DNA of 64,000 nucleotides. Origin: Undaria pinnatifida (taxonomy: Eukaryota > Sar > Phaeophyceae > Laminariales > Alariaceae). Below are positions 6,741 to 59,310 of this stretch, in pieces. A program made the translations under genes and the position numbers. Position 1 is the first letter of the stretch. Each line of letters opens with the position of its first letter. The stretch lies in NCBI GenBank assembly GCA_012845835.1, contig JABAKD010000020.1:4982720-5046719 (forward strand), written 5' to 3'. Below the pieces are notes generated by a model, which searched no databases, was not told where the DNA came from, and worked only from the letters and a program-made list of their open reading frames with translations.

Positions 6741-6820
6741 TGGCTCAATCGTAGGAGGAAGGGGTGTAACCGACGGGTAGAACACGACAGGTGCTTGCGT
6801 GGGCCTTGAACTTGTCGATG
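1..6820 (-). CDS. Large 3'-side exon of a modular Pro/Thr-rich protein, 66-residue repeats (partial)
   Basis: On the minus strand one frame is open from the acceptor at 6821 to the left edge of the window. It reads as about 34 copies of a 66-residue unit with blocks such as AEPTPTPTFNPT, TNTESPTATPT, LPTTSPTPGPTPP and HHTATPSSSPT. The frame has almost no Met inside the repeats. The start was chosen at a 3' splice site: branch-like GCTAAC near 6880, then TTTCACAG, then CA TCG ACA. This gives phase 1, matching the phase-1 donors of the small upstream exons. The first residues (ASTSSRPTQAP) resemble the start of those exons. Length changes at about 4958 (6 bp) and about 6500 (3 bp) keep the frame. 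An extra A at 2478 shifts it, yet both frames stay open to position 1. Pro/Thr arrays of this sort are typical of extracellular, O-glycosylated or wall-associated proteins; the function here is inferred. The terminal exon end lies outside the window. Confidence 0.6.
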
Positions 6821-16450: not shown

Positions 16451-16699
16451 ACAATAATAGATTTGCCGGTAGATGAAATAACGGCATCTGCCGGTGCTTA
16501 AGATGGAAATTGGAAGCCTCGTGGCTTGAACGGCAACGCACGGTTAGCAGATGGAGAACATTTGGAACCCCGCCCGGGCGTGCTTGTTTCTAATGCGCAC
16601 ATCTACGGGCTACAATGCTACGTAAAAAATTCAACACCAGATACACGAGGCATGCCTCTGAATCAATCGCCCGGCTCGTCAAGGCTGGGCAACACTTAC

Positions 16700-16774
16700 C
16701 CGAAGTTGCCGTCGGTGTCGGTGTTGGGTCCTGGGCGGCAGGATCTTGCGTAGGGCTTGCCGCCGTACTCGGAA
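16700..16774 (-). CDS. Pro/Thr exon P16.7
   Basis: Acceptor ACTGCAG, donor GTAAGT (plus ACTTAC at 16694-16699). Phase 1 at both ends, 25 codons, reading VPSTAASPTQDP then AAQDPTPTPTATSG. It is the last small exon before the large repeat exon. Its intron would hold the copia element. It is paralogous to the copy at 22165. Confidence 0.55.
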
Positions 16775-17310
16775 CTGCAGTGATTGTGGTTGGGGTGGAA
16801 AGGATATAACCGCGAAACGTCATTGTCGGAACGTCGACAGCGGCGTCGTTATCGGGGCTTTCATGGATCGATTTCAGTGTATGATGCGAGAACATGATTC
16901 AAGTCTCGATTGACACTTGTTCAACGGAGGCGAGTAAGGTTGTGAAGACTGGGGTGATATTTTCAAGTTTGTGGGCACTACGTGCATCCAAAGAGATCTA
17001 GTGTCTAGAATATAGCTCGATAGTCGGCAAATAGGGACTGTTGGGATTGTTTGTGGTATTTCCAAGTTGTCGGATGCGTGCATCCGAAGGGATCCAGTGT
17101 CCAGGGCACAGCTCGATTGTCGGGCAGCAGAAATAAAAGTCATGAACGCACCCGTGCTTTCTTCTACCAAAACATACGAACACTAAAATGATACAAGGTC
17201 GGCATCTCTATCAAGCACGTGGTTTCCGATATTGTGGTGAGCAAAACGAGGTATGCAAGATCAGCATCTCTATCAAGCACGTGGTTCCCCAAGACTCGGA
17301 TGGCACTTAC

Positions 17311-17394
17311 CCGAGGTTGCAGACGGTGTCGGTGTCGGATTTTGCGTGTAAGCCCCTTGCGTGGGGCTCGGCGTCGTGCTTGGGACGACGGTGG
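17311..17394 (-). pseudogene. Pro/Thr exon copy P17.3, acceptor lost
   Basis: The donor GTAAGT (17305-17310) and 28 frame-compatible codons (VVPSTTPSPTQG-like) remain. The expected CAG acceptor is CGG, while the sister copy at 22738 has CAG at the same place. Probably skipped in splicing, or spliced at an unseen site. Confidence 0.5.
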
Positions 17395-18050
17395 CCGCCG
17401 ATATCGTTGAATTGGGAAACAAAACGAGCATTTATTGCCGGGACGTTGGCGACGATGCCATCGTCGGGGTTCCAGTACTAGGCATATGGTCCGAGAATGA
17501 AGCCGGTATCGAGTAACGCTGGTGCATCAGAAATAATGGCTCTTAGCGTCATTCGTAGTCAATGAGATTCGCCTTTACTGTAGGCGAGGGGGACATACTA
17601 CGTACCAGGTGCACAGGCAAACAAACAACCTCCAAATTTCGAATGGCACGTAATGCGCCCCATGTACTGCGTATAACTCTTCTAGCCCTCAGTGGTGGCG
17701 TGTCTCGTGCAATGTAGGTTGTGGTACGACGTGCATCTCTTCATATTAAAGTGGCTCTCGAACAATTGGATCAATAGTTCGCGCCCAAAGAAGCTAGGTA
17801 GTGCCTGAGGTGGAGATTCGCCTGCTTCTGGCATTAAATATACGTATATACGGATTAGAACACCTAGGGATTTAGGTCGGCCCCTCTGCCCCTATGGCGA
17901 ACGGGCCAATTTCGGGAAGTACGGGTTGTCATGCAGTACATGCCACATAAAGTTGTTGGCGTTAGGCTTATCGTAGGCACAAGGGGGAACATTGTGTGAG
18001 TGCCGGAGGCGAAGGTTTTCAACGGTAGTTGATCTGCGCGTCTTGCGAGC

Positions 18051-18215
18051 ATCAGCACCAGGCAACAACAGCAGCCAGGCAGCAGCAGACAGCAGCAGAC
18101 ATACCGAGAGCAGACAGCAGCGTGCAGCAACAGGCTGCAAAGCCAGGGTTTGCCGGCGCAGCAAGCAGGGGTAATATCCGACAACAAGCAGAAGCAGCAA
18201 CAGCAGCAGCAGCGG
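18051..18215. repeat. CAG-rich island 2
   Basis: CAACAACAGCAGCCAGGCAGCAGC-type sequence, broken by short spacers, with flanks (CATTGTGTGAGTGCCGGAGG) that match 23555-23580. Confidence 0.7.
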
Positions 18216-18291
18216 ACTATGACGGTGTGTACAAGATGGAACAGACGAGTTACCGCCGTAGTAGATACTCCAAGAGTTGGGCAACACTGAC

Positions 18292-18369
18292 CTGAAGTAA
18301 CAGCTGGTGTAGGGTTGAGGGTGGAAGGCGATGGCCTGGGGCTTGCCGTTGTACTCGAAGGGTCGATAG
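18292..18369 (-). CDS. Pro/Thr exon P18.3
   Basis: Acceptor ACGGCAG, donor GTCAGT. 26 codons, phase 1/1, reading AIDPSSTTASPRPSP then STLNPTPAVTSG. It directly follows the second Cys-rich exon. Its first half (DPSSTT) is closest to the copy at 33401, which follows the first Cys-rich exon by one step. Confidence 0.55.
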
Positions 18370-18539
18370 CTGCCGTAAGCGGTGAATCACGCAACACGAT
18401 AAGCAATCGTAGTCGGCTGCCAACTTCGGCGATGCCGTCGGGGCGTGCCCCACTCACAATGGGTGAATTATTGAACTAGAACCCCTTCAGTGTGCAACAA
18501 CATGCGTTGGAGACCTCTAACACCCCCTCCGCCTTATTC

Positions 18540-18940
18540 CTGGTGTTCCCCCCCTCGTACAATGACCTAAGTGTTTTGTTTGAGGCAACACCGAAGGTTC
18601 CTTGGAGTCATCCCACGCTAGCGGTGCAGCTGAAGTTCCTGAGCTCCTGACATGTCATCATGATGAGGAGCTCAACACCTAACCCGAAAGTTGGCTTCGA
18701 ATACATCAGTTCGCGCTAACCCGACAAAAATATCTAAGCGCTAATAAGGGTGATAGTCCTATAGCGGAAACTATTCGTGAAGCTATCATTATAACCGACA
18801 GTTCCGCGCTTGAGGAGCTCAACCAGTGAAAAGGTCAGAAAAAAAGCGCTTGGGAGAAAAATTGCTAACCCCTATCGTGGGATGACTTTCTGGTGCAGAA
18901 ATCTTCACAACCATCTTGTGCTGAATCGCTTGGGTCGTCG
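18540..18940. repeat. Dispersed intronic repeat, copy 1 (pair with 25230-25570)
   Basis: Shares diverged blocks with 25230-25570: GTCATCCCACGCTAGCGGTG against GTCGTCCCACGGTAGGGATG, a GAGGAGCTCAACAC/GAGGGGCTCAATCT block, and CTAACCCCTATCGTGGGAT against CAACCCCTGCCGTGGATC. Both lie in introns. Confidence 0.55.
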
Positions 18941-19369
18941 TCAACTTGAACGACGGCCAGAAAAGGAATCAATCCCATAATTGTATCCAGTTCCGTACAA
19001 CTTATTTGTTGTACTCTCTTGACAGAATGGCCCGTTCAATCGGCGGTAAAGACTTGCCGGCAGTCAGGCGCCCAAGAGGCATCCGCGCGAACCTGAGTGG
19101 CAATGATAACTTGCCGTTGTGGCAATACGTCGACGGAGTACGCCGCGAAGTGTCTTTCAGTATCCCCGGGACCGGCAAGGCCTGTAATGATTTCGCTGGA
19201 TTCAGTGTCTAGACGTTGGTCAATATTGTTATTCCGCATCCCGTTCCTGACATTGTACATCTTGTACCTGGTGTGTGTTCGGCGGAGCATAATAACCATT
19301 CTAGGCATATCAATCGCGCTGTTTGGAGCAAACAGCAAGATAATCCACCCTTTCTCCAGCCGCACTCAC

Positions 19370-19573
19370 TTTGACAGCACTTTTCGTCGCTGCATAGATT
19401 GTCGACCAATTCCAACCTGCGACCTCTGGAAAAGACCGTGAAGTCGTCGTCGAAATAATCGTTGTCCGTGTCCCACGTTAGGCAGTTACCAGCACCAGGG
19501 TTAGCCGCCGAACCAGACCCGCACGCCCATTCTTCACATTTAATACAGTCGGGGTTGTCCAGCGTACATGCCG
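19370..19573 (-). CDS. Cys-rich module exon 2
   Basis: 68 codons between the acceptor TTGGCAG and the donor GTGAGT (plus ACTCAC at 19364-19369), phase 1 at both ends. It has eight Cys in the pattern C-x6-C-x2-C-x4-C-x12-C-x29-C-x4-C-C. Fragments are ACTLDNPDCIKCEEWAC, NPGAGNCLTWDTDND and LVDNLCSDEKCCQ. The spacing matches the exon at 36398 except for the x29/x33 loop, which in both copies holds an acidic/Ser stretch. I do not recognise the family; a disulfide-stabilised secreted domain is likely. Just upstream the unspliced frame reads IVWLSLLRAFVLAAA, resembling a signal-peptide core, but no in-frame ATG precedes it. This exon could therefore begin a second tandem gene. Confidence 0.6.
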
Positions 19574-20090
19574 CTGCCAATACGAACGCGCGGAGAAGAG
19601 AAAGCCAAACAATGTGGGCGGAGCTATTCAGGTTGACGTGGCCTGCAACTCACGTTGCGTGGAGCAAAAACGGATAGATCACTCTTCCAGGAAGCCGTCA
19701 CAGCGGCCAGCCGACGGAGGCAAACCCGACATGAGGTGATGCCCTTGCACAAAGGTACAACTATATACAGTTTGGCTTCAGGTCATTGTTGCTTGCGTGT
19801 TTAGCACTTTAACGTACTCCCAGACTGCAAAGCTGCATGGAGCTGCATCTTGATTCGCGAATGTGAGTTTTGCATATACCTCTAAATTGAACCGTCTACG
19901 AAAGTCAATGGTTCCGCCAGCAGCGTCGCCGTGGTATCGTTTTGGTTGTGCAGAATTGTTTCGCCTGCCGACGTTAAAAGAAAGTTGAATGTTACAGCAG
20001 AGCAGTGATCCTCTCTTCGTTGTCCGCGTCCTGGAGGTGATGAGCAGATAAAATCACCTTTCTGCGCACCTGATTACCTTTTATATATAG

Positions 20091-20204
20091 CACTACCCGC
20101 CAACACAGCGTTCAGGCGTTCCCATTCGGATTGGAAACCACTTTTAAAAATAACACCACCCACCAACACAGCCTTCAGGCCTTCCCAATCAGATTGGAAA
20201 CCAG
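20091..20204. repeat. Two-copy tandem repeat, 63-bp period
   Basis: CACTACCCGCCAACACAGCG starting at 20091 recurs as CACCACCCACCAACACAGCC at 20154, each ending in GATTGGAAACCA. Confidence 0.8.
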
Positions 20205-20570
20205 GATCAGATACCCAATGCATGTACGCGATTCTCGTCATACATAGCGGTCGCGTGTTCAATTGGCATTCAACAAAGGCTGACACTAGTTCTCCGTGTT
20301 GATAGCAGCAATTGTGTACATTCTTTCTCTGAGTCCGGACGTCCGCGTGAAAACAATACCTGTTTTTATCTTGGGGTCCTCACACCACATTCGCGCCGAT
20401 TTTTTTTTTTATCTACGTGAAAACCGAGTAAATTGTCAATGTGTCTTGAGCCGAATACCGTAGCTCTGGCACAGAACGAGAACAACCACGGGCTACGACG
20501 ATACGCAGGGATACAGCATTTGAATTTGCACCAATCGCTTGGTGATCCAAGAATAGGGGGGAATACAAAC

Positions 20571-20654
20571 CCGAAGTTGCAGACGGTGTCGGTGTCGGAT
20601 CCTGAGTGGCAGGCCATTGCGTTGGGCTTGGCGACGTACTTGGAGCACCAGTGT
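20571..20654 (-). CDS. Pro/Thr exon P20.6
   Basis: Acceptor ACGGCAG, donor GTTTGT (weaker than its relatives). 28 codons, phase 1/1, reading DTGAPSTSPSPTQWP then ATQDPTPTPSATSG. It is the last Pro/Thr exon before the second Cys-rich exon; joined to it the junction codon is GCG (Ala). Confidence 0.55.
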
Positions 20655-21220
20655 CTGCCGTTTTTGTTTTATTGGGGGCCGAAGATAATTTTATCCTTTT
20701 CAGAATGCGGAAGTCGATGTTGCCGTCGGTGTGGGACCCGATATTACGACTATCTTCCACCGACACGAAAACAGGAACGACAATTGGTTATGGTTCTATT
20801 CTTCTTTATGATCAATATTCCTTAGCTGCAGTGCAGGCGAGGGGCATATATCCGGCCGGGTTTTGCGTATCTGCTGTATATAGTCTGTCAACGATGATAT
20901 ATAATTCTGTCCCGTTGCTCCTAGACGGTTACGAACAAGGCTTTCAAACTGCTTGCTCATATACGTACTTACGGTGTTGTTTCACGGCTCATGGGTTCGG
21001 CTTCGTTCGGAATGCAAAACAGGGGATGTGGGGATGACAGACGATATGCACAACATACACTGTAGTCCCCGAATACCCATGCCACTTTCGTAACGCTAAC
21101 CCAGATATCGGAAGCCGGCCCCTCCTCCACCCTCCCCACTACGGTACGTATGTCGTGCCTTCATTTTTATGGCGAGAATATCTCAGATTTTTCTCCCCTC
21201 GTCGACTCGCGATATAATAT

Positions 21221-21290
21221 TATAAAAAATGAAAATACACTCCAGCTGTGAGATCGAAGATTTCGTCGAAACTCATCTTTATATATATGT
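21221..21290 (+). repeat. Dispersed family A, short copy
   Basis: Holds CTCCAGCTGTGAGATCGAAG and CGTCGAAACTCATCTTT, the family's terminal block, then diverges. Confidence 0.75.
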
Positions 21291-21359
21291 TGTACCTACC
21301 CACGCTGCCATTTGGGCGCTCTCAGCAGCAGTTGATCCTTTCTCTCGGCATTTTTGCAA

Positions 21360-21475
21360 ATAAAACCAAAATCTCACCACGGTGAGAATCGAACTCAAGG
21401 ACCAACGCTAGTAGTAGTATTCGACGGTAACCGTTAGACCACCGGGGCGACCGGCTTGCTTAAAGTATGATTGGC
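21360..21475 (-). repeat. tRNA-like SINE head
   Basis: On the minus strand, GCCCCGGTGGTCTAACGG resembles a pol III A box and GAGTTCGATTCTCACC a B box with T-arm pairing. CCCCGGT can pair with ACCGTGG with one mismatch. The anticodon arm does not fold well, so this is a tRNA-derived repeat rather than a tRNA gene. It shares ACCGGGGCGACCG with the SINE at 45.6 kb. Confidence 0.5.
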
Positions 21476-22164
21476 TTAGGACAACCGCATAGAAGTGGGG
21501 GTTGGTCGGGCTGCGCGAACGAATGTCTTCGAAGTCATATTTCGGGTGAGATATTCACCTCCTCTTCATGGTAGGACCTTCTACCAAAGTGTAGATCTAT
21601 GTATGCTGTGAATTGTTCTCCTCAAGGCTTGGCAGGGTCCTATCACGTCGTCTGTTCTAAGAATTGTGCCTGCACCTGGCATGGTTGAATACCTGGATTC
21701 AGCTCTTGTGTCTTGCGTACCCCGGTGGTGTCGTGCAGTGTCAGCATCGCTCGTGAAAGCGCAGGGTTATGTAACATGCGTAGGATACTGCAGACCATAG
21801 TTCCGCGTTATAGAGATGTTCCACATTATTGAAATACGGTCCGCTTAGACACTTAATTTTGGTAATCTGTCGCATAGGTTAATAATGCGGCTTGCGTCGT
21901 CACGGTTCTCCTGCACAGCAGGGTCACGCCTGTTTGAGCTACGTAACGCGTAAGCTGCCGGTGCCTAAGATGGAAATTCGAAGCCTCGTGGTTTGAACGG
22001 CACCGCACCGTAGTCAGATGGAAAAAATTTGGAACCCCACCCGCGCCTGCTTGTGATTCATGTTAACTAATACGGGCTGTCATGGTTCGTATAAAATGCA
22101 ATACCAGGTACACGATGTGCATCTGCGTCAATCGCTTGGCTCGTCAAGGCTGGGCAGCACTTTC

Positions 22165-22239
22165 CCGAAGGTGCCGTCGGTGTCGGGGTTGGGATTTGGG
22201 CGGCAGGTCCTTGCGTAGGGTTTGCTGTCGTACGCGGAA
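22165..22239 (-). pseudogene. Pro/Thr exon copy P22.2, donor lost
   Basis: Same length and frame as its paralogue at 16700 (25 codons, VPRTTANPTQGP then IPTPTPTAPSG) with a CCGCAG acceptor. The donor reads GAAAGT instead of GTAAGT, a GT-to-GA loss. Confidence 0.5.
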
Positions 22240-22737
22240 CTGCGGTGGCTGTTGGTTGCGGTGAATAGGGTACAAGCGCGAAACATCATTGTCGGAACGC
22301 CGACCGCGGCATCGTCGTCGTGGCGTCCATCAATCGATTCAAGTGTATAACGCGAGAAAACGACTCAAGTCGATTGACACTTTGTGCAACTGAGGCGAGT
22401 ATGGGTTGTGCGGATTGTGATGGTAAATTCAATTTGTGGGCACTACGTGCATCCGAAGAGATCTAGTGTCTAGGACACAGCTCGATAGTCAGAGAGAAAG
22501 GATTGCTAGGGTTGTGTGTGGCATTTCCAATTTGCCGAATATGTGCATCCGGAGAGATGCAGCGTTAAGGGCACAGCTCGATAGTCGGACAGCAGGAAAA
22601 TATATCATGAACGCACCCGTGCCTTCTTGTGCCAAAACATACGAACCTTAAAATGATATTATGGTGAGCAAAGAGAGATATACCAGATCTACCTCTCCAT
22701 TCAGCACGCGGTGCCCCAAGACTCGGGTGGCACTTAC

Positions 22738-22821
22738 CCGAGGTTGTAGACGGTGTCGGTGTCGCGTCTTGCGTGAAAGGCCCTTGCTTGGGGCTCGGCG
22801 TCGTGCTTGGAATGACGGTTG
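22738..22821 (-). CDS. Pro/Thr exon P22.7
   Basis: Acceptor TCGGCAG after a TTCGTTTGTTTCCC pyrimidine tract, donor GTAAGT. 28 codons, phase 1/1, reading ATVIPSTTPSPKQGP then FTQDATPTPSTTSG. It is the clearest model for the exon boundaries of the whole series. Confidence 0.6.
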
Positions 22822-23761
22822 CTGCCGATATCATTGGATTGGGAAACAAACGAATACTCATTTGTCGGAACGTCGACGACGACGCCATCGTCGGAGTTTT
22901 CGTCCTTCGCCTTCCAGTACTAGGCATATAGTCCGAGAATGATATCAGTTTCGACCTACACCGGTACAACACAAACCGGTGATACTGGCTTGTATCGTGT
23001 TGCGTAGTCAACGAGGTTCACCGTTAGTACAGGCGAGGGGGACAGGTCCGGCTGAGGTTTGGCGGGCTATCATGCCGTAGATTCAGCTTGCTATATTTAT
23101 GCAACGCTACTCCGAGGGGAAGGCAACATTCTTTTATCGTTGGTTTCTCGTCTCTGCCAAAGTTGTTCATGACTCATGGTTGCTTTGGGGTCGAACGCAA
23201 GACTAAGGGGCTGACAGAGACGATGTTAGCCATAGCTCTGATAATCTCGATATACTTGCAATGTCCGTAACGCCACGCGAAGCGTCAGAGCATTCCACAT
23301 GCTTAGAAGTAGTTCATTCCAGGTGCAAAGACAAATTGACACCCACTAAATGTCTACTGGCACGTAGCGCTCTCCCGACTCTACGTCTATCAGTACTAGT
23401 CTGGCATTAGAAACAAACACCTACGGGTTAGAACTCGTAGGGGTTTGGGTCGGTCCGTATGTCTCAATGGCGGAGGGGGCACATTTGGGAACTACGGGTT
23501 CTCGTGCAGTGCATGCCATATACGTAGTTGACGATAGTCCAGTCATAGTACAAGGGGCAACATTGTGTGAGTCCCGGAGGTAAAACGTTCAAACGGCAAC
23601 TGATATGTGAGTCTCGTGGGCCGTCGGAAGATAGATATCGTCGACAACATATAAGATACTACTGTAGTATAGACTTCGCTAGGAACTCACGCAGCAGGAT
23701 AATTCTAGCTGCTACCAGCTTGTCTGCGTTGGTGGATGGTAGACGGTCGTCATACGAAACT

Positions 23762-23990
23762 CAGCAGCAGGTAGTAGTAGCCAGACAGTAGCAGCCAGCA
23801 GCAGCAGACAGCAGCAGATAGAGAGCAGGCAGCAGCAGGCAGCAACATGGTGCAAAGCCGGCATTAGCCAGCAGGAGCTAGCAGGAGCATCGAACCCTAC
23901 AAAAGGCACAAGCAGCAGCAGCAGCTGGCAGCAGAAGGCAGTAAAGCCAGCACCAGTAAGAGACAGCTAGAAGAAGCAGCAGTTGCAGTC
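23762..23990. repeat. CAG-rich island 3
   Basis: CAGCAGCAGGTAGTAGTAGC-type and AGCAGCAGACAGCAGCAG blocks. The flank TTGTCTGCGTTGGTGGATGG matches island 1. Confidence 0.7.
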
Positions 23991-24386
23991 AGCTCGGTGC
24001 GTGTGGGTGGGCTACTGTTCAGTCTTAAAAAGTAGGGCACGTGAAAGCCCGAAGGCGGTTTTGCTGAAGCGCCTTAGTAGCCGTTAAGTATGCAATGCCG
24101 ACAACGCAAGGTGATATGAAGCCATGATCGACTGTTCCCATAATGGTTTTTCGTCCGTCCGCACAAGGGCAATAGTAGATGACGACGACAAATCCAAGGT
24201 TATTCCGTTGTCTGTTGCTCGCGATGCCCTAGATCGCTGTCCTGCAAGGTGCATCACAACACACTAAATGCAAGGTAAAGCCAACGAAAGATCCGCCCTC
24301 AGGTTGATTAGCTAGTAAATATAAACCCGATTAAACGACCGCCAACTGTAGTACGTTTGGTGACCCAAGACATGGAAGGCACTAAC

Positions 24387-24455
24387 CTGAAGTTACAGAC
24401 GGTGACGGGCCTTGAGTGGTAGGCCCTTGCGTAGGGCCCGGCGTCGTATTTGGAA
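24387..24455 (-). CDS. Pro/Thr exon P24.4
   Basis: Acceptor GCTGCAG, donor GTTAGT, 23 codons, reading VPNTTPGPTQGP then TTQGPSPSVTSG. It forms a close tandem pair with the next exon, about 330 bp apart; exon and intron were duplicated together. Confidence 0.55.
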
Positions 24456-24719
24456 CTGCAGCGGCCGACGTTTGCGTTTTTTGGTCAACAAGGGTAGTTA
24501 TCAATGTCAGAACGCCGACGGTGGTTTCGTCTTCGGGACTTGCATCAGTCACAGTAGGTGCACAGAAGTGTAGAACCCGATATCGCAATCAGATTTCAAT
24601 TGATGCTGCTACAACAATGGCTATTGGTGATGGATCTACAATTATCATCCGGGAAGAAAAGATCTGCATCAATCATTTGATGGCCCAAAAATGGAAGGCA
24701 CAAACCTGAAGATACTAAC

Positions 24720-24788
24720 CTGATGTTGCAGACGGTGTCGGGCCTTGGGTGGTAGGCCCTTGCGTACGGCTTGGCATCGTACTCGGAA
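24720..24788 (-). CDS. Pro/Thr exon P24.7
   Basis: Acceptor ACTGCAG, donor GTTAGT, 23 codons, reading VPSTMPSRTQGP then TTQGPTPSATSG. The surrounding 300 bp repeats the sequence around P24.4 nearly base for base, making it the youngest-looking duplication in the series. Confidence 0.55.
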
Positions 24789-25229
24789 CTGCAGTGGCGG
24801 CCGTTAGCGTTGATTTGGTAAATGATGTTAGTTATCAATGCCAGAACACCGACGGTGGTTTCGTCTTCGGGACTTGCGTCAGTCACAGTAGGTGTATAGG
24901 AGTAAAGAATCCTATATCGCAATCATATTTCAGTTGATGCTGCTACAACAACCGCAATAGGTGATGGATCTACAGCTCTCATCTTGAAAAGGAACGCTCA
25001 GCAGCTGTAGTGTAGGTGAAAGCAATGTATCAAGATGAAGCCTGTGTAGCTACTATACATGGTAGACTCGTACTTGTAGAATTATGCCACGATGCTTCGA
25101 ACGGGGCACACGGACATCTATAATACCGTTGCTCATGTAGACGATGTGATTTTCATGGCTCATGGTGGTTTCAACGTCAAGTATAACACAACGATAGGAA
25201 GATCCGACGCAGAGATTACATAGCCTCCT

Positions 25230-25570
25230 TCATTTTGACATCGGACCCTCAGCAGCACTCCACATGACCACAAACACCTCGCACCATACCCCTCCTGAGT
25301 CGTCCCACGGTAGGGATGCAGCGGCCATTTCTGAGCCCCTGCCATGAGGGGCTCAATCTCTCATCCAGGACATGACTTTGAAGGCATTCGTTTGCGCAAT
25401 CCCATCAGCAACTTCATGCTCTAGTCTAGACTCAAAACAATTTCGCTCGCGGAATTATCAGACTAACCGATAGGTCCTCACTTGAGGTGTTCAACCAATC
25501 AGATTGTCAGAAGGCCAGGAACACCGTATGGCCCAAACAAAAAATCAACCCCTGCCGTGGATCAATCTCC
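25230..25570. repeat. Dispersed intronic repeat, copy 2
   Basis: Diverged partner of 18540-18940 (see that entry for shared blocks). Confidence 0.5.
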
Positions 25571-25935
25571 GTTGGTCTATGTATACCACGTAGACCACGT
25601 AGACTGCTGTAGACGTAGACGTCCAACGATCGTTTGTGGCGCCTGACCACGTGTAACGTCGTTCGGTGTCGGGACACGCGTTTCTTCTTGATGTTTTTGA
25701 TCAACGGGATCAAGCGGTATTGCCTCACGTACCCTGCTACAGTAGTATCCAAGGTCGACAGCCCAAGCGTTGCGGTGTCATAGGCGCCGCCGTGAAGTCA
25801 GACTGCAGAAATCCTCAAATCAACTGGATCTTCCTTTGAACATCTGTACAAAACTACGGGCTATGGCGGTGTGCACGAAAAGGAACACACATCTGCACCA
25901 ATCGTTTTGTGCCCCAAGGCTTTGGTAGCACCAAC

Positions 25936-26005
25936 GCAAAGCTGCAGACGGTGTCGGGATGTTGGTGGCAGGCCCTTACGTCGGGCTTGGCGTTGTATTT
26001 GGTGG
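25936..26005 (-). pseudogene. Pro/Thr exon copy P25.9, frameshifted
   Basis: The acceptor ACGGTAG is present, but the segment is 70 nt (not a multiple of 3). In the aligned frame the conserved CAA (Gln) is TAA. The donor position reads GTTGGT. Homology to the other exons is clear, coding use unlikely. Confidence 0.5.
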
Positions 26006-27099
26006 CTACCGTTTGCTTTTGATTACGAAAAAAGGAAAATTCTGATTGTCGGAACGCCGAAGACAGTGTCATCTTCGGAGCTTGTATCCGTCCTATCATG
26101 TGTATGGCCAGAGAGGCGGCATATATTTACTGATTGACGCTGGTACGACCGTGGCAGTTTGTGGTTCTGACAGTCATCGTCATCGACGGAAACCAGCTGT
26201 GCACACTCCTCGTCAGGATAAAGAGATGATGCTGATGAGGGGAATCTGTCCGAATGAAGTCTTCGTTGCTACATAAACTAAGCTATAAGTCGTGTTAGCT
26301 ACGAATAGTCGGTGTTACTTCCCGGCCACTTGAGCGATGCCATTGTACATTCTTTAGTTTTCAAGAGGTACTTTTCGTTATACCTCTGGTTCTACTGCGG
26401 TAGCTCATACGAACATATGAGTTCCTCGTTTCAACGTGCGACACCCCCGCGATTTCAAGCCAACCACATCCCGCAGGGGAACCTTTTACCATAGGGTTAT
26501 GTTGCGTTCGCCCAGCAGACGCACGGGGAGGTACAAGTCGCTGATTGCTCAGTTGATGATAGATGAGCGTCTCTTATTGTCCATGTCTTCCTGGGGGTCG
26601 ACTACGAAAGTGAAATGAGTGGCACTACTGCAACACCGATGATATTAGTCCCCTTCAGGCCGGTATCCATCATCGCCTGTCAAAGCTCACAGTCATTCTA
26701 CACTCTACTTGTTTGGATTCTACATACCACATGTCCCCGTAGAAGAGAATGGTCTGTAGTCTACCCGTGAACATCGCAGGCACTTAGTGCTGACTTTTCA
26801 CGGATCACGTAGGTTCGTGTTGTGACTTGGGCATCTTTTTCGTGAGTTTTGAATAACAGGTTCCCGCTTGTTTGGCGTACGTGTGCGCACTCCGGTGGTG
26901 TCAAAGGTAAAGGTTCGAGGATTGCAGCGTCAAGGTCACCGTTCAGTTGTCAGACTGCGCGGTGAAACAATACTACGGCTGTGCCCACTTCTACCATCAA
27001 ATGCAAACAACTGCGCTATGACGGTATGCACAACATAAGGAAAACACAGCCTAGACCTCCATCGATCTCTCTGTGTCCCAAGGCTTGAATGGCACTAAC

Positions 27100-27183
27100 C
27101 CGATGTTGCAGACGGTGTCGGTGTCGGGTCCTGGGAGACAGGTCCTTGTGTGGGACTCGGTGTCGTACTTGGGCCTCCAGCGG
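27100..27183 (-). CDS. Pro/Thr exon P27.1
   Basis: Acceptor ACGGCAG, donor GTTAGT, 28 codons, reading AAGGPSTTPSPTQGP then VSQDPTPTPSATSG. In this copy the frame is also open upstream to a strong CTACCTTAG site near 27257, so a longer exon form is possible. Confidence 0.55.
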
Positions 27184-28021
27184 CTGCCGTTTGCGCTGGA
27201 TTGGGAAGCAGCGATATTAACCATTGTGGGAGCGTCGACGGTGTCGTTTGCACTAAGGTAGGATCCCACAGCGCAAAACAGTTTTAATCATGCTTGTGCG
27301 ACAAAGACAGCATACGTTCATTCTGCTCGTCGCGTTCGGTATAATTCAGCTTCACTGCAAACGAGACGCCTACGTCCAGCTGACGCCAGCCTAGCTACCA
27401 TACACGGTGGTGGTTGAATTATGCAACCCTGACTCCGAGGGGGGCACATGGATGGACTCGACCCGTGTTGCACATTCTCTGCCACACGAGGTTGTCTCAT
27501 GGCTTGCTTCGGTGCCGGGGATAAACGTAGACGAAGGGGGGCTTACAGACAACGCATACTGTATCCCCGTTTAACCCGGTATGTGTACATCTTCTGTTAT
27601 CCTTCGCAAGGCACCAGAAGCACTTCACACGTTTACAAAAACCGTGTGCCGTACTCCGCCGTTGTGTTCGTACGGTCATGCATGTTAGCAGGGTATATAT
27701 CACCCCATGAAAATATTGACAGTAACACGTGACGTGTCCCGTAGTGTGTGGTACGACGTGTGTCCATTCGCCAATTTATTTAAAAAGCCGGATCGAGTAT
27801 CCGTGGCGCACTTACTCTAACCTGGCTTGAGGTGGGGACTCCAACCGTGGCATTGTCACAGGCATCGCTCACTAGTCGGACTGCGAAAAACCTGAGTCCT
27901 GCCCAGGCTTTGCTTCTCACATGAAATGTGAACAACAATGAGTCATGTCGGCATGCAAAATGATAGCACGATCGGCATGTGCATCAAGTCAATGATACCT
28001 CAACCCTTGCGCGGCACTAGC

Positions 28022-28114
28022 CCGAAATAGAGGAAGTAGCAAATGGTGTCGGTGTCGGGTCCTGGGTGGCAGGCTCTTGCGTGGAGCTTGGCATCGTAGT
28101 TGGATAATCAGCGA
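28022..28114 (-). CDS. Pro/Thr exon P28.0 with GC donor
   Basis: Acceptor GACGCAG, 31 codons in phase 1/1, reading VADYPTTMPSSTQEP then DPTPTPFATSSISG. The donor is GCTAGT: either a rare GC-AG intron or a dying site. Extra codons near the 3' end lengthen it by three. Confidence 0.4.
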
Positions 28115-28199
28115 CTGCGTCGCTATAATACCCTGTACAGTCAGTGTATCTTGGGAGTATTACGTTGAGCTTTTCCTACCGGGGCACAGGTTTACACAT

Positions 28200-29015
28200 G
28201 AATACGGCCGAACATCCGGCTCACGTTATGTCGAACTTGAAAAATACCCTCCCCGGTATCCCCAGGAAAAAAAAACCGCTTGGATATTGACAGGTCCGCC
28301 CGTATATCCGGCCAACCTGGTATCCCGCCGTTTCAGGGGGGGAGAGTGCTATCAACTGAGCTTAGTTTGGGTAAGCTATGGGCTAACCTTTTGCAAGTGG
28401 TCAAACGGACTAATACTCTACTAATCCCTTAACGAATGGCGTCGTCGATAAACCATGGGTTTTTTGGGTTGTGGGTGCAAATCTCACCATCCACAGTAAT
28501 AAACCTTTTTCAGACTTTCCCCATGTCGAACTTGAAGAATACTCTCTACGGTATACCCAGGAAATGAAACCGCGTGGATATTGACAGGCCCGCCCGTATA
28601 TCCGGCCGACCTGGTATCCCGCGGTTTCAGGGGGGGAGAGTGCTATCAACTAGGCTTATTTTGGGTAAGCTATCGGTTAACTTTTTGCAAGTAGTCAAAC
28701 GGAATAATGCCCCACTAGACTAATCCCTCAACAAATGGCGTATAGACCATGTTTTTTTGGGGTGGTGGGTTCAAATCCACCATCCACAATAACAAACTTT
28801 TTCAGACTTTCCCCATGTCGAACGTAAAAAATACTCTCCCCGGTATCTCCAGGAAATGAAACCGCTTGGATATTGGCAGGTCTGCCCGTATATCCGGCCG
28901 ACCTGGTATCCCGCCGTTTCAGGGGGGGAGAGTGCTATCAAATGAGCTTGGTTTGGGTAAGCTATGGGCTAACCTTTTGCAAGTGGTGAAACAGACTTAT
29001 GCCCAACAAATTCCT
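28200..29015 (+). repeat. Tandem tRNA-like SINE-like units (2.6 copies, about 295 bp)
   Basis: ATGTCGAAC recurs near 28228, 28524 and 28815. Each unit holds a GTATATCCGGCC block, a GTTTCAGGGGGGGAGAGTGC block, an AATGGCGTCGTCGATAAACC A-box-like element and a T-arm such as GGTGGGTTCAAATCCACC. The third unit is truncated near 29010. The same family occurs inverted at 44395-44790. The array lies within an intron of the Pro/Thr gene. Confidence 0.7.
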
Positions 29016-29579
29016 GAAAATTCGAGATCGACGAACTTCTCTCGTGGTTGCATGGTTCCTCGAGGTGGAAACGTAGGAAGCAAAATGTAACAGACAATAC
29101 GCAGCTCCGTTTATGACAGGGTCAGACTCGCTAATATAGCAGCCAAGTCTACATATTTCCACATTCTTTGAAATATATATGCAAGAGGCCGTATATTCAT
29201 GGCGTAGAAACAGCACATCATAACTGTTCTACACATATCCCGCCCATACTAATAACTGGAATATGTCATGTGGGTCGCGTAGGTTTGCTGTACGCGTTTT
29301 GTATGTACCTGCTGGGCGTTCTTGACATTAGGATCCAGTCTCCGCGCCTTACGTACGAATTCTCTGGTATCGTCTGATTTTGCATGGAAAATCGAAGCGC
29401 TGCAGTGTCAACGCCATCGCTCGGTAGTCGGACAGCGTAGTAATTGAAACAAGCCGTAACCTGCTTCGACAATGAAACTTGGACAACAACCGTACGTAAT
29501 ATGAAAGTATGTTCAAACCGATGTACACGATTAGCATCTGCATCAACGGTTTGATACCCTACGATTGGGCGGCACTGAC

Positions 29580-29657
29580 CTGACGTTTCCGAAGGTGTCG
29601 GGAACTCAGTGGCAGGCCCTTGCGTGGGGCTTGGCGTCGTACTTGGCACTGCAGTGG
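29580..29657 (-). CDS. Pro/Thr exon P29.6
   Basis: Acceptor ATGGCAG preceded by CTGAC and a CCCCCCTTGTTGCCC tract, donor GTCAGT. 26 codons, reading ATAVPSTTPSPTQGP then ATEFPTPSETSG. In-frame stops just upstream of the acceptor support the boundary. Confidence 0.6.
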
Positions 29658-30496
29658 CTGCCATTTGCGTTGGATTGGGCAACAAGGGGGGTCAGTTTTG
29701 TAGAACCGCCTACGGCGGTGTTTGCATCGTGGCTTGCGTCAGTCATATCTGGTGTATGGTCAGATATCGAAATTGAAATCTGTTTCGATCGACCCCGACA
29801 CAATCGAGGCAAGGAATGATTCTGGCAGTCGTCTTGGTCAATCCCGGTATAATTCAGCTGTAGTGCAGACGAGGGGCATATTTCGGGCTGACGAGTCCCT
29901 TAGTAGCCCCTTACACTCTCTCGGCAGGAGAGCGGACTAGTAATCGCTGATTCTTCAGCTCGTGATAGATGGAAGTCTGTAATGACTCGCGATTTCCTCA
30001 AGGTAGAGGTGTTCAGAAATGAAGAGGGGCCTGACAGACACGATGTAATCGCCCGCCGTATCTCGATACTACTACACAGTTTCCGCAACGCCGTTGCAAT
30101 CGGAATTCCATGTGCTTCAAGTATTATAGCTCATCGCGTTTCCCCATGGTGTGTGTACCATACAAACACCTCTCTTCTAGGTGTTTAGTAAACTGTAATG
30201 GAGTGTTTGTCACGTGGCGCGTGTTTCGCACTGCTTTGCGCTACGACTTGTTGCTCGCTACGATGTTCATGGACGAGAGGATCCGGCCTGGATGTTCCTT
30301 CCGTACGCGTATTCCGGCAATGACTAAGATGGAGATTCAACGACGTGTAGAGTCAAAGGAACCACTTGGTTGGCGTGCGCCGTAATTGCTGCTTGTCCTG
30401 GCTTTCGTCAGACAACATGTGAACAACTACTGCGCGGAGAACACGGTCGGCATCTGCATCAATCGCTAAGTGCCACAGGCGTTGGTTAGCACTTAC

Positions 30497-30574
30497 CCGA
30501 ACTTGCTGGCAGTGTCGGGCCCTGCGTCGTAGGCGCTTGCGAGGGGTTTGACGGCGTGCTTGGGACTTGAGTAG
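30497..30574 (-). CDS. Pro/Thr exon P30.5
   Basis: Acceptor ACGGCAG, donor GTAAGT, 26 codons, reading ATQVPSTPSNPSQAP then TTQGPTLPASSG. Less Thr-Pro regular than its neighbours. Confidence 0.55.
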
Positions 30575-31120
30575 CTGCCGTTTGCATGAAATGAGAAGGA
30601 AGGGGATCAGTCATTTTCGGCACGCCGACGGCGGTGTCAGCGCCGGAACTTATGTTGGCCACGTTTTGCATAAAGTACGAGACTGAAAAAGCTTTCTGGT
30701 GACGCTCGTGCAACAGCTACAATTAACGATTGCCATGCTTGTCTTACGAGTATCCAACGTGCTCGGCATATAAACTATGTGTCTAGTGCAGGGGAGAGGG
30801 ATATTTCCGACTGAAACCTGCGTAGCTATCACGCAGAATAGTCGCGGGTTGTTTTTTTCCTGACTGGTGGTGTTCTTTCAAGGCTCATGGTTGCCTCGGG
30901 GTTGAAAGTAGGGGAGGTGGGCCTGACAGAGACAATGTATATTGCGGCCCTGATAATCTTGACACCCATACAACGCCCAACGTCCGCAACGGCTTGCCCA
31001 ACATCAGAGGTGTTCCACGTGCTTAGACACACCGTATATCAAGTACGCAGACGAGCATAGGAATATGAGGCCTGTATCTGCATCAATAGATTCGTAACCC
31101 AATATGAGAGCAGCACTAAC

Positions 31121-31204
31121 CCGAAATTGCAGACGGCGTCGGTGTCGGGTCCTGTGTGGCAGGACCTTGGATAGGACTTGGCGTTGTATTTGAAGCGCTA
31201 TTAG
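31121..31204 (-). CDS. Pro/Thr exon P31.1
   Basis: Acceptor ACGGCAG, donor GTTAGT, 28 codons, reading ANSASNTTPSPIQGP then ATQDPTPTPSAISG. Confidence 0.55.
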
Positions 31205-32593
31205 CTGCCGTTGACGTTGGATTGGGAGACGTTGCGATCAATCATGGTTGGAACACCGACGATGGTGTTGACATCCGGGCTTGTATCGTTAACATAATTC
31301 AGGCATGTGGGCTGACAATTTAATCCATTTCACTTGAGGTTGGCACAACTGAGGCAAGTTTTGAGTCGGATACAGGAGTCGTCTGCTGTCTTTCGTACTT
31401 AACTGCTGTGCAAACTGGGGGCATCCAATCCCACTGAAGCCTGCGCAGCTACAATATTCAGTGTGTGTATGCGGGTACTGTAGTACTACGTTACTCATCC
31501 CAGGCGGGAAAACGATGGTGTTTATTTGACCGGTTGCTCATTCGTTGGCAGCCGGTGCTCTTTCTTGGCTCATTATTGACCTTGAGGGCGAGTGTAACAG
31601 GAATATCTGAGTCAGTGGCGAAGGCGATACATAGCCCCCTTGACAGCGATATGCATTATATCGTGCACTCTGTAGTCCATTAGTGTATATTTGATTCGTA
31701 GTCACTACACTGTTGATGAAGATACACACAATATGCGGGGAATCTCGGTTTGACAGTTCCCGTCGGTATGTTGTTTGTTCAAGTTGTTACTACCTTCCCA
31801 TCAAAGTATCGGGGAACGTTGCAGGCAATGCTGCAAGGAATTTTACTATAGGACGGTTTGTCGGTAAGTACACCTAACCGTAGAGTACATATTCCGGTAA
31901 CATGGGCATTGTGCCGTATTGAGCAGGTGACGGCAAACCCACTCCCTACACCTCCTTTCTTTTTCTCTTCTCCTTCTACTTCCGACCTATCTCCTTCGTT
32001 TCCATGTTTTGGCCACATAAACGCCGCTTTGAATCTATCTTCTTTCCTCTTCACAAGGGATCCTAACAGACACTTTGGCGCCACCTCTGCAGCTCTAAGC
32101 AACAAGACAGAGCCTCGAGACGTGTTAGTGTTTCATGCGTAAGGCGCCCGCAACGTTGCGCAAGCGGCCAAAGACATTGCACGTGGGTTAGGCTACAGTC
32201 TGCAGCCAGCACGACATAGTTCCCGTTTTCGGGCCGTTTTACGTACATCACTGCGTATTAAACCATCTTAGACATGTGTTTTGTAGAGTGGTAGTGGCAT
32301 GTTACCTTTCAGGTCATTAGTCTATATCTCACGGTACGTGTCTCTCTTGGTAGTGGTTTCGAATAACGTGATCAAGCAGTCGTGCCTTGCGTACTTTGGC
32401 AGCGTCTAAGGTGGATACTCGAATAATTGAAGATCCTAGGGAACCACGCTTGCGTCGGACAACAGAACACTTTAAAATCCGCCCAGACCTGCTTCCGACC
32501 AACATATGAACACGATCGGGCGCATGACGATACGTGTAAGGATAGACATACAATCTGCATCTTCATCTGCACACAACTCTTGGGAAGGCTAAC

Positions 32594-32677
32594 CCGAACC
32601 TGCAGTTGGTGTCGGCGTCGGGTCCTGTGTGGTAGGTCCTTGAGTAGGTCTTGGTGTCGTAATTAAAGCGTCCATAG
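32594..32677 (-). CDS. Pro/Thr exon P32.6
   Basis: Acceptor CTAAAAG (atypical), donor GTTAGC. 28 codons, phase 1/1, reading AMDALITTPRPTQGP then DPTPTPTAGSG. A GCAGGT insertion sits next to the donor and offers an alternative GT. Confidence 0.5.
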
Positions 32678-33400
32678 CTTTTAGGTGCGCCGAATGGAGA
32701 AGCAAGGCGAAGGACGGTTGTCGGAAAGCCGACGGCGGTTTCGGTGTCGTGGCTTGCGTTAGTGAAAATTATGTGTCGCATCCGTCATTGAAACCAGTCT
32801 CGAATGCCGCCAGAATAACAGACGCATGCACCGATGTCTGTAAGCGTGTGGTACATATATTGTAACTAGTCTATAGTGCTGGCGATGGGGATATTGACGC
32901 TGGAGCCGACTTAGCCATCGTACATCAGGATGAATTGCTCTGGGGTCGAGTCTTTAACGCCACCTGTTACTTTATTTACATGTGCGATGCCATGGCTCAT
33001 GGTTGTATTGCGGTCGAGTATGTAGAAGAGAGGGAAGGAGATCTACAACAGTAATACACACACCAAAACATAACCCCTTTTATCCAGATACGTATACCGC
33101 GTCTGCAGCGCCAGCCAAATGTCAGACCATATTACGCCCCGTGGAAAACGTAGTGCACCTGTTCCAAGTACATCCCTCTTGGGAACATAATGGTAACGTT
33201 CAGCTCCACGTAGAGTATTCAAATTTTGTGCGACTACGACTTGCGCCTCTTCCAATGTCTTTTTTTAAGAGCAGAATACCGCGTTCGGGCACTGCTTGGT
33301 AGTCGAAGTGCTCGGCAATCGGACTGCAGAAAACGCGAAATCTGGCCGAACCTGCAGTACAGGGTCTACGGTGGTATTGTAAAACTTCGGCAGCACTGAC

Positions 33401-33484
33401 CCGAAGTTGCAGTCGGTGTCGGCGTCGGGTCCTGAGTGGCAGACCCTATCGTTGGACTTGGCGTCGTACTCGAAGGGTCGTCAG
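33401..33484 (-). CDS. Pro/Thr exon P33.4
   Basis: Acceptor AACGACAG (or AACTCAG, 12 nt earlier in frame), donor GTCAGT. 28 codons, reading ADDPSSTTPSPTIGS then ATQDPTPTPTATSG. Confidence 0.55.
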
Positions 33485-34556
33485 CTGTCGTTTCCGCTGA
33501 GTTGGGCGACGAGGCGAACAATCGTTGTCGGGACGCCGACGGTGGTGTCAATGGCGGAGATTGCACCAGTCACACATTAGGTATACGGTTCAAGATTGCA
33601 ACCCGTTCCGACTGACGCTGATGCACCAAAGGTAATCATGCCGTTTCTCTCGTCTTGGTCGATGTATTGTCCCTCTTTCTCAAGCATTAGACTACATGAA
33701 CAACCATCCCTCCAAAGGAAATCATTAATTAAGCAATTGCTTAGGTACACCGGGTCCCGTTTTGCTAAGTAGATTATTTAGGCCAACCCCCCCCCCCCAA
33801 ATAAATGGACGCAAATGATATAATAAATATAATGGTATACAGAAGCTCACCCATTACATACATATACCCCAGTCGTAGCGGAGACAAGGGGCAAATTTTT
33901 AGGCTGAACCTGTGTATCAGGCACGATGCAGTAGATCCAGACCGGTAGGATAGTACTGTACGCTGCTCGGAGAGTCACAGGATGTCTTCAACACGAGTTG
34001 CTGATTCCTGGAAACATGACGTGCTTTCACGGCCCATGTCTGCCTCGGGGAGACAGAGCTAGGGGGACACACCGGGTATGCGTTACGCAGCCCCGTGTAT
34101 CCTGATGTTATCATGCATCGTCCGTGCCTCTGCCGTCACCCCAGCGTGTTCCACGTGCCTACGATCACTGCGCACCATTTATTTCCCGTTGTCTATAGCT
34201 AATAATACTACGTACAGCTTTCATAGATGGTACGTGTTTGCAGAATAGTCGCACGCCATGAGTCACGGGGGTTTGCAAAGTCTTGCATTTCTTGTTGGTG
34301 TTTGTGAGGAACCGCACTCAGCGTCCGTGCCTCACGTGCTCCGGTAGTGGCTACAGTAACGACGAGTACACACTCAACAAGTAGTAATACGGGCGAAGAC
34401 ACCGCGTGGAAGTGAGACTGCATCTTACCTTAACCACGCCATGGACTTGTTATGGCATCAGAGATGAGCAACTTTGGGCTATGGCGGCGTGTTCACAACA
34501 ATGAGACACAAGGCCTGCGTCACCGGTTGGTGACGTAAGACTTGGGGAGAACTAAC

Positions 34557-34652
34557 ATCTATTTGCTATCGGCGCCGGTGTCGGATCCTGGGTGGCAGGC
34601 CCTTGCGTGGAGCTTGTCGTCGTATCTGACGAGTCAGTAGCGCTCGTCAGCG
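34557..34652 (-). CDS. Pro/Thr exon P34.6
   Basis: Acceptor CTGAAG (or the in-frame GTCAG 27 nt later), donor GTTAGT, 32 codons, reading ALTSATDSSDTTTSS then TQDPTPAPIANR. It is the most diverged member and the first Pro/Thr exon after Cys-rich exon 1; the joined junction codon is ACG (Thr). Confidence 0.45.
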
Positions 34653-35880
34653 CTTCAGCGCGTGTCAAGGCGATACATTAGTGTCAGATAAATTACGGCA
34701 GTGTCGGCTCCGGGGCTTGCGTCGGTAAAACTAGGCGTGGTGTGACCGGCTTGGATTGACGTCGTTACAACACAGAAAAGTAACTGTTTTACGTCCCAGT
34801 ATTAGTTTTCTCGTCGTTTGGTAATGAACGGTTCAGTATTTTTATTCCGATTGCATTATATTGGGCAAATTGGATAACCGAGAGGTGCGTTAAAACACAT
34901 ATAGCCAAGGCAAGAGATTGCACAGGATCATAGCTTCAGCACGAGAGAGCTGACGCCGAACATCAGAATATAAGTAATGCGTGATGTCCAAATTTGATTG
35001 TAGAAATACTATCTCGTCCGCTTATTAACGAACACGAGCCTTCTCTTGTGACGAATTCATCTGCCAGATCTATTACTGGTAACTATTAATAGCAGCAAAG
35101 TGCTATAACAAGGATTACAATGTATGTATGGTACATGTTACGACACGCAGCTTACTTAAACGTGCCAACGGTTCGCCGTCATCCATATAGTCTACTGATT
35201 GGCGATTGGCAAGAGATGGAGCGGCCTATTTTCATCACGCTTTGTCCCGAATAGCCAAGTAATGAAGAACGCACACACTGTTAACAATATACTAAAGTAT
35301 GGCACGGGTTAGCCGCGTGCCAGCGATTTGCAGCGCCTTGTATTGATGCGGTAGACCATGAAACTGGGCAACAACCGTGAATATCACACAACTCCCAACC
35401 CCCCCCTTGACCTTGTCCCTGATTTTCAGCCCTCACACACAGGTAGGTGAACATCAGCATCTGGGGCAATAACAAGCGCTCTTGACGAAAGCAAGTCACA
35501 AAATAGGTTATAGCAATCCAAACCAGGTAATGGCGTGTCCTGTATCAGGTAGAGGCGTGCCCTGTTCGTAAGACGGGTAGAAATCGCGTTGAACTACCCT
35601 TATCTGGAGTTCCGTGTGACGATGGTTTTGAAGAATAGACGCGTAACTGAGCGATACATATGGTACCGGCTGTCCGGTGGCTATAGGAAATAACAAGACT
35701 GCAAGCAATAGCGATGATGTACGGCAAGTCAACTGCCTTGATGGAAAATGTCGCGGCACGTAATGAAGTCGTTCATCTGTTTTGCTCGCCTCGATTTCGA
35801 ACTACCAGTATCGCGCCACATTAGGCGAAGGGCCCTTATTTTTCACATACATCCGCGACGCGGAATGCAAAACCCGATAT

Positions 35881-36320
35881 ATTATAAAAATGAAAATACA
35901 CTCCAGCTGTGAGATCGAAGATTTCGTCGAAACTCATCTTTGCAAGCTGTGTGTGATACTCCGATTGCGCGCATTACGAGTTGTGTGTCCTCATTAAGGA
36001 TATAGGTCGGCAACTCCCCTTACAACTACAGTGTAGCTATCAGGGTCAACAGGGTGATTTTAGTCAGTCTGTGCGCGGAAACTATAAAACCCGTTTCTGA
36101 GGGGGACAAAATCTGACAGCTGTGGAGATATATTATAAAATAATGAAAATACACTCCGGCTGTGAGACAGAAGATTTCGTCGAAACTCATCTTTGCAAGC
36201 TGTGTGTGATACTCCGATCGCGCGCATTAAGAGTTGTGTGTCCTCATTAAGGATATAGGTCGGCGACTCCCCTTACAACTACAGTGTAGCTATCAGGGTC
36301 AACAGGATGATTTTAGTCAG
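35881..36320 (+). repeat. Dispersed family A, two direct copies
   Basis: Two head-to-tail copies (35881-36125 and 36128-36320). Each begins with a TATAAAAATGAAAATACACT-like end followed by GTGAGATCGAAGATTTCGTC, and runs through CTCATTAAGGATATAGGTCG and the TATCAGGGTCAACAGG block. Confidence 0.85.
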
Positions 36321-36397
36321 TAGATATATAAGACATCGGCCACAATCACTGAGCAAACATCCAGCAAGCACAACGTCATACCCCTGGCGGCACTCAC

Positions 36398-36613
36398 TTT
36401 GGCAGCACTTGGCCTCGCTGCATATCCCGTCGTCAAGTTGCAACGCGCGGCCCGCGAGCGAACTGTCAAACCAAGTTGAAGATGAGGACAAGGTTTCGCC
36501 AGAGTCCGTATCTTCCAATAGGCAGTTCCCAGCATCAGGAATAACCTCAGAGCCAAGGTCGCAACCCCAATCCTCGCATGAAATACAGCCATCCTCTCCC
36601 AGTGTACAGTCAT
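36398..36613 (-). CDS. Cys-rich module exon 1
   Basis: 72 codons between the acceptor TTTTCGATAG (after a CCACGTTTGTTTT tract) and the donor GTGAGT (plus ACTCAC at 36392-36397), phase 1 at both ends. It has eight Cys: C-x6-C-x2-C-x4-C-x12-C-x33-C-x4-C-C. Fragments are DDCTLGEDGCISCEDWGC, IPDAGNCLLEDTDSGE and LQLDDGICSEAKCCQ. About half the residues and all Cys match exon 2 at 19370. The apparent read-through SEC after CCQ is the donor itself (GTGAGTGC). No signal peptide is visible in the adjoining 36614-36830, so an earlier exon is expected to the right. Family not recognised. Confidence 0.6.
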
Positions 36614-59307: not shown

Positions 59308-59310
59308 ATG

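Follow-up and report, generated by a model that had tools for sequence, protein, structure and literature searches.

What is encoded by a long series of short, mutually similar minus-strand segments in the genome of Undaria pinnatifida, and are they the exons of a working gene? The segments lie in a 64,000-nucleotide stretch of contig JABAKD010000020.1 (assembly GCA_012845835.1, positions 4,982,720 to 5,046,719), hereafter the window, where an initial annotation had described them as proline/threonine-rich (Pro/Thr) mini-exons punctuated by two cysteine-rich (Cys-rich) exons. Working from the DNA sequence of one species at this minus-strand locus, we judge it reasonably probable that the window holds the middle of one large brown algal gene, which would be read from the minus strand and encode a giant Pro/Thr-rich protein in which the linkers between and after the Cys-rich modules lengthen through duplication of units and shorten through their decay. 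The gene would run from Cys-rich exon 1 through the series of Pro/Thr mini-exons to Cys-rich exon 2, a few further mini-exons and a very long Pro/Thr repeat exon. Among the publications listed by our literature searches, we recognised none as describing this gene.

The initial annotation counted 17 homologous minus-strand segments and named alignment as the check on their homology. An nhmmer profile seeded with four mini-exon copies and iterated on the minus strand recovered all 17 (34723-16693; E-values of 7e-45 to 6.9e-23), which bears out the homology. The profile also matched an 18th segment, missed by the initial annotation (6923-6771, minus strand; E 8.7e-16), at the start of the long terminal exon. 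When both strands of a 294-kb region surrounding the locus were searched, the profile returned the same 18 matches and two at chance level (E 0.017, outside the window; E 0.068, within the 198-bp array of the terminal exon). A genome-wide DNA search with the copy at 31.2 kb found four places, all within this locus; this search is insensitive, since the locus alone holds 17 copies.

The boundaries attributed to the segments (an AG acceptor, 69-96 nt divisible by 3, a GT-type donor and phase 1 at both ends) apply to 14 of the 17 copies, one of them with a GC-AG pair, and fail in the remaining three. Thirteen copies combine intact GT-AG sites with phase 1 and an open frame, the copy at 28.1 kb has a GC donor, and those at 26.0, 22.2 and 17.4 kb are broken. 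The usable mini-exons, all 14 of them divisible by 3, code for 375 amino acids (aa); 12 are located between Cys-rich exons 1 and 2 and two between exon 2 and the long repeat. Several mini-exons have two candidate acceptors of equal phase, which makes exact exon lengths provisional. Between the usable exons, the introns measure 264-2,311 nt, and the last one 9.9 kb. In the direction of the predicted transcript, the features are:

36398..36613, minus strand: Cys-rich exon 1, 216 nt (about 71 aa), both ends in phase 1, acceptor GATAG, donor GTGAGT
34557..34625, minus strand: mini-exon 1, 69 nt, acceptor uncertain owing to a further phase-1 AG located 27 nt upstream
33401..33496, minus strand: mini-exon 2, 96 nt (84 nt from an alternative phase-1 AG)
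32594..32677, minus strand: mini-exon 3, 84 nt, donor GTTAGC
31121..31204, minus strand: mini-exon 4, 84 nt
30497..30574, minus strand: mini-exon 5, 78 nt
29580..29657, minus strand: mini-exon 6, 78 nt
28022..28114, minus strand: mini-exon 7, 93 nt, GC donor
27100..27183, minus strand: mini-exon 8, 84 nt
25928..26088, minus strand: decayed copy at 26.0 kb (matched segment), in-frame TAA and an 8-base deletion
24720..24788, minus strand: mini-exon 9, 69 nt, recent duplicate of mini-exon 10
24387..24455, minus strand: mini-exon 10, 69 nt
22738..22821, minus strand: mini-exon 11, 84 nt, sister of the decayed 17.4-kb copy
22157..22331, minus strand: decayed copy at 22.2 kb (matched segment), lacking a GT donor, sister of the 16.8-kb copy
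20571..20654, minus strand: mini-exon 12, 84 nt, donor GTTTGT
19370..19573, minus strand: Cys-rich exon 2, 204 nt (about 68 aa), both ends in phase 1, acceptor GGCAG, donor GTGAGT
18292..18369, minus strand: mini-exon 13, 78 nt
17303..17470, minus strand: decayed copy at 17.4 kb (matched segment), lacking a usable AG acceptor
16700..16774, minus strand: mini-exon 14, 75 nt
1..6820, continuing past the window start, minus strand: long terminal exon, which opens with a mini-exon unit and carries a 198-bp (66-aa) Pro/Thr array

Have these segments been maintained as coding sequence? Among the 17 copies, the mean pairwise difference was 0.258 in the exon versus 0.414 in the flank directly upstream, and it was 0.421 and 0.423 in the alignable intronic segments A and B, which were found by profile and are, if anything, biased towards conserved intron. 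Differences by codon position (0.258, 0.238 and 0.381 for positions 1, 2 and 3; 17 copies) were in excess at position 3 over positions 1 and 2 (p = 0.002), and the excess persisted after removal of CpG columns (p = 0.005). The initial annotation had named a ratio of nonsynonymous to synonymous divergence (dN/dS) near 1 across all copies as the result that would tell against it. Pooled over 16 of the 17 copies (the 26.0-kb copy was left out) and calculated by the method of Nei and Gojobori (NG86), the ratio was 0.47 for the Pro/Thr frame, compared with 1.19 for each of the other frames. As a pooled value it therefore does not tell against the annotation, although the youngest pairs look nearly neutral. 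Furthermore, a neutral simulation at the divergence of the flank, modelling substitutions only on a star tree, predicted 6.05 intact copies out of 17, and 13 or more were reached with P = 7e-4.

The locus shows the organisation of a tandem exon array, with homologous exons of one phase separated by homologous introns. Intronic segment A is present in nine copies, about 312-549 nt before the core of the next mini-exon, and segment B in twelve, about 115-283 nt after the preceding mini-exon. The recurrence of both segments, which the initial annotation had not noted, indicates that the duplicated unit was an exon plus an intron. Tandem duplication copied these units, which mostly lie about 0.3-1.6 kb apart, both one at a time and as a block of two exons. 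Self-comparison identified a recent example of each: 24983-24708 is 85% identical to 24649-24375, and the two-exon block 23044-21955 is 77% identical to 17595-16488. The corresponding spans are:

16488..17595, minus strand: two-exon block, duplicate of 23044-21955 (76.7% over 1,134 columns)
20971..34070, minus strand: span with nine copies of intronic segment A
16495..32467, minus strand: span with twelve copies of intronic segment B

In a tree of the 18 segments, three of the 15 inner branches were well supported and 10 were open; the recent pairs supported by the tree are 24.88/24.55, 22.90/17.47 and 22.33/16.86 kb. The two recent duplications and the three decayed copies support the earlier proposal that the array evolves by unit gain and loss. 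Because an exon-intron unit was duplicated, the phase symmetry was inherited from one ancestral phase-1 exon and not selected copy by copy. The same symmetry means that each gain or loss of a unit preserves the reading frame. A CTG-rich sequence at 16443-16238 is 77% identical to 23885-23676 and looks like the start of another, third copy of the block that was cut by insertion of a Copia-type element.

A conserved block also precedes the mini-exons, about 100-60 nt upstream of their core (e.g., 33565-33524). The copies differ there by 0.36-0.41, versus 0.53 over the 20 nt that follow on the exon side, in a profile of 13 of the 17 copies (those at 28.1, 24.45, 17.4 and 16.8 kb were left out). 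Read by eye in the exon frame, the consensus of the block is TQAPTTTPPSAFRQ, usually followed by a stop. The block could be a relic of a longer ancestral Pro/Thr exon. A test of the block for a common fold gave four weak pairs, and its differences by codon position show no excess at position 3. Frame 0 contains no stops in 225 codons, versus 14 in 225 and 6 in 224 in the other frames; this carries no weight with us, since inspection shows that very few consensus codons of that frame could become a stop by a single change.

How do the Cys-rich exons fit such a gene? As the initial annotation had proposed, the two share their phase: each (216 nt and 204 nt long) begins and ends in phase 1. Both are open and they are homologous to each other, with 46-48% identity by tblastn and about 50-52% otherwise (50% in the genome searches), and eight of eight cysteines align. 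Searched against the 511-Mb assembly, exon 2 matched two places, which are the two Cys-rich exons themselves, and exon 1 matched three, of which only the two Cys-rich exons are credible; the third (C57, E 6.6) was rejected for lacking the Cys pattern. A first-look filter limits the sensitivity of these searches, and distant relatives may exist. Pfam gave no match for the frames of either exon, nor for 958 aa of the terminal repeat. With the frame of exon 2 only, a sequence search of the Protein Data Bank returned two chance-level matches to plant methyltransferases (E 0.48 and 1), which were rejected, and a viral_contigs search returned five pattern matches, none of them confirmed. The fold predicted for exon 2 from a two-row alignment has a mean predicted local distance difference test (pLDDT) score of 63. 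As searches of this sensitivity placed it in this gene only and Pfam gave it no match, the Cys-rich module would be a new one to characterise.

The long terminal exon spans about 2,270 codons within the window alone. Tandem Repeats Finder placed its 198-bp repeat at 1-6428 (32.5 copies, 90% matches), and 27 of the 30 intervals between anchors in the array are exactly 198 nt. The 27 exact copies contain no stop in the Pro/Thr frame versus 8.2 expected (Poisson probability exp(-8.19), about 3e-4, with the shared ancestry of the copies ignored); the other two frames contain 9 versus 11.4 expected and 2 versus 10.3 expected. Beyond the window, the array extends for about nine more copies, the last ones broken by length changes, and runs directly into a 500-N assembly gap (L009 7768-8267, outside the window). 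A mini-exon-like match in L010 (E 0.0017) falls within a GCTAAC-like repetitive stretch and was rejected.

Several results weigh against a gene still in use, and some of them would suit a once-real gene that is now decaying, with the exon-intron array as its relic and the recent duplications neutral. Three of the 17 copies are broken, and the two youngest duplications diverge nearly neutrally, with little sign of constraint. In the two-exon block pair, exons differ at 25/176 sites (0.142) and introns at 169/888 (0.190), with 0 versus 11 gaps; in the 24.98/24.65-kb pair, the values are 10/68 (0.147) and 31/207 (0.150). The weak constraint of the block pair is partly expected because each of its exon pairs has one broken member. 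The neutral simulation leaves 11.8 of 17 copies intact at the divergence of the recent pairs (P = 0.37) and 10.0 of 17 at the exon's own (P = 0.11), so integrity is informative for the older copies only. Constraint is also weak in the terminal array (dN/dS about 0.87 in the Pro/Thr frame versus 1.09 and 0.96 in the others), where one 199-nt copy near 2480 (minus strand) causes a frameshift, after which the new frame happens to remain open to the window end. The 3' end of the gene would lie in or beyond the assembly gap. Upstream of Cys-rich exon 1, the search for a signal exon or start codon yielded one candidate (59874, minus strand, with a phase-1 donor), which is at chance level (seven such matches per 588 kb of strand). 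Another signal-exon candidate, at 34.4 kb, was rejected as it lies, by eye, within sequence repeated in other introns. Lastly, a Copia element occupies the last intron. Set against decay are the GT-AG sites and frame kept in 13 of the 17 copies, the open Cys-rich exons with their 8/8 aligned cysteines, and the terminal array with 0 stops versus 8.2 expected. Furthermore, the one copy with a shifted frame may reflect a sequencing error, since it is located about 4 kb from a contig end and the assembly was probably built from long reads. We regard a decaying gene as unlikely; an array that is only decaying would still be a clean case for tracking how exons are lost once units have been duplicated. 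A tandem repeat outside any gene, or a family of mobile elements, with no more than a resemblance to exons would explain why the repeat includes intron-like sequence and why reverse-transcriptase elements are present in the window. That explanation is scarcely credible in view of the frame-specific constraint, the splice sites that bound 14 of the 17 copies on either side, the mini-exon unit that also opens the long repeat exon, and the lack of further copies in 294 kb or, at the low sensitivity of the search with the 31.2-kb copy, genome-wide. Exon use looks constrained over the long term but recently relaxed, which is what a linker with dispensable single copies should show.

If the exons are used, do cells choose among them? 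Regulated cassette splicing, which builds on the alternative splicing suggested in the initial annotation, would let cells pick subsets of mini-exons and thereby set the distance between the Cys-rich modules by tissue or condition. The symmetric phase of all 14 usable copies is consistent with this possibility, as is the alternative splicing of tandem leucine-rich repeat (LRR) exons reported for brown algal ROCO genes (PMC11378527). However, tandem duplication of one phase-1 exon yields the same symmetry. The flank just upstream of the exons has only a weak common fold (four weak pairs, -3.07 kcal/mol, 15 of 17 copies aligned), although for each pair one sequence has both sides changed with pairing kept. 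Regulated splicing appears rather improbable to us. In the gene that we favour, transcribed and translated, most intact mini-exons would be spliced in by default, and linker length would change mainly over evolutionary time via unit gain and loss. With 12 usable mini-exons between the Cys-rich modules and two after, copy number would set module spacing. The mini-exons amount to 375 aa versus about 2,270 terminal codons, so skipping would chiefly alter module spacing and not overall length. It is a speculative and quite improbable extension that the alga tunes the spacing of a new kind of Cys-rich module, matched nowhere else in its genome, through a choice of Pro/Thr cassette exons, up to 12 of them between the two modules and two after. 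The array, still turning over, would then be a counterpart of the titin PEVK spring that arose independently in a walled organism.

What kind of protein would such a gene make? Arabinogalactan-like hydroxyproline-rich glycoproteins are recognised by at least 50% Pro, Ala, Ser and Thr and by frequent AP, PA, SP, TP, VP and GP pairs, and extensins by SPPP motifs. In the 14 mini-exon peptides, these four residues account for 73% of the sequence; in the 66-aa unit, for 68%. Over their 375 aa, the mini-exons contain 3 AP, 9 PA, 11 SP, 28 TP, 5 VP and 13 GP pairs, and the 66-aa unit has 3 SP, 6 TP and 2 GP pairs and none of the others. These peptides thus have both the composition and the dipeptide pairs of the arabinogalactan-like group; SPPP motifs are absent from the mini-exon peptides and the 66-aa unit. 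From the Pro/Thr composition together with two Cys-rich modules, one would expect a chimeric protein of the wall or mucilage that is probably secreted and O-glycosylated. Its disordered Pro/Thr stretches would serve to space the Cys-rich modules.

The rest of the window contains mobile and repetitive sequences. The Copia-type element of the last intron (10111-16211) has its pol on the plus strand, with a weak integrase match and an RVT_2 match, and lies between 226-bp repeats with 85% identity to each other. A fragment of an RVT_1 reverse transcriptase is located at 50400-51101 (plus strand; E 2.7e-21). We also identified a short interspersed repeat at 36321-36127, 36068-35876 and 21280-21217, the first two copies being 95% identical, with further 31-43-nt pieces between 40.8 and 61.1 kb; its pieces occur on both strands. 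Long trinucleotide arrays consist of TGT (41479-42106), AAC (52804-52972) and AGT (59169-59360). Rfam at gathering thresholds gave no matches in the window, and no tRNA genes were found.

Which known systems does the array resemble? The PEVK region of vertebrate titin has many short, highly repetitive proline-rich exons that encode an extensible linker, with large tandem block duplications and many alternatively spliced isoforms (PMC6469411). The array is similar in its short repetitive proline-rich exons, predicted linker coding and block duplication. However, titin is a muscle protein rich in Pro-Glu-Val-Lys, with demonstrated splicing and more than 100 annotated exons in human, whereas this array is Pro/Thr-rich, has 17 copies and two Cys-rich modules, and its splicing is predicted. 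At most, the array would work like titin PEVK, and no homology is claimed. Were its exons in use, a titin-like route to length-adjustable proteins would not be limited to animals, and a linker-type exon array would exist in a lineage that acquired multicellularity and walls independently of animals and plants.

Closer in lineage are the brown algal ROCO genes, whose tandem 72-nt, phase-2 LRR exons of uniform size and phase carry one repeat each and are reported to be alternatively spliced (PMC11378527, which also cites NB-ARC-TPR genes). The ROCO exons are phase 2 and encode folded LRR repeats, whereas those of this array are phase 1 and encode Pro/Thr linker peptides. Indeed, none of the 14 exon peptides reads as an LRR or tetratricopeptide repeat (TPR); all are Pro/Thr-rich and phase 1. 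Pfam found no ROC-COR or NB-ARC domain in the two Cys-rich exon frames and 958 aa of the repeat, in a sequence that lacks both gene ends. With sequence and phase both differing, we would assign the array to neither the titin PEVK nor the ROCO type.

Brown algal arabinogalactan-like proteins (Herve et al. 2016, as cited in PMC8307928 and PMC11468063) offer a likeness in their high Pro/Ala/Ser/Thr content, many SP and TP pairs and junction to another module. They differ from the product of this gene in that its Cys-rich module has no Pfam family and its secretion, proline hydroxylation and glycans are predicted at most. If its exons are used, the array would be a second, different type beside the LRR and TPR exon arrays reported in brown algae, and a single gene would display the birth of exons, their duplication in blocks and their decay.

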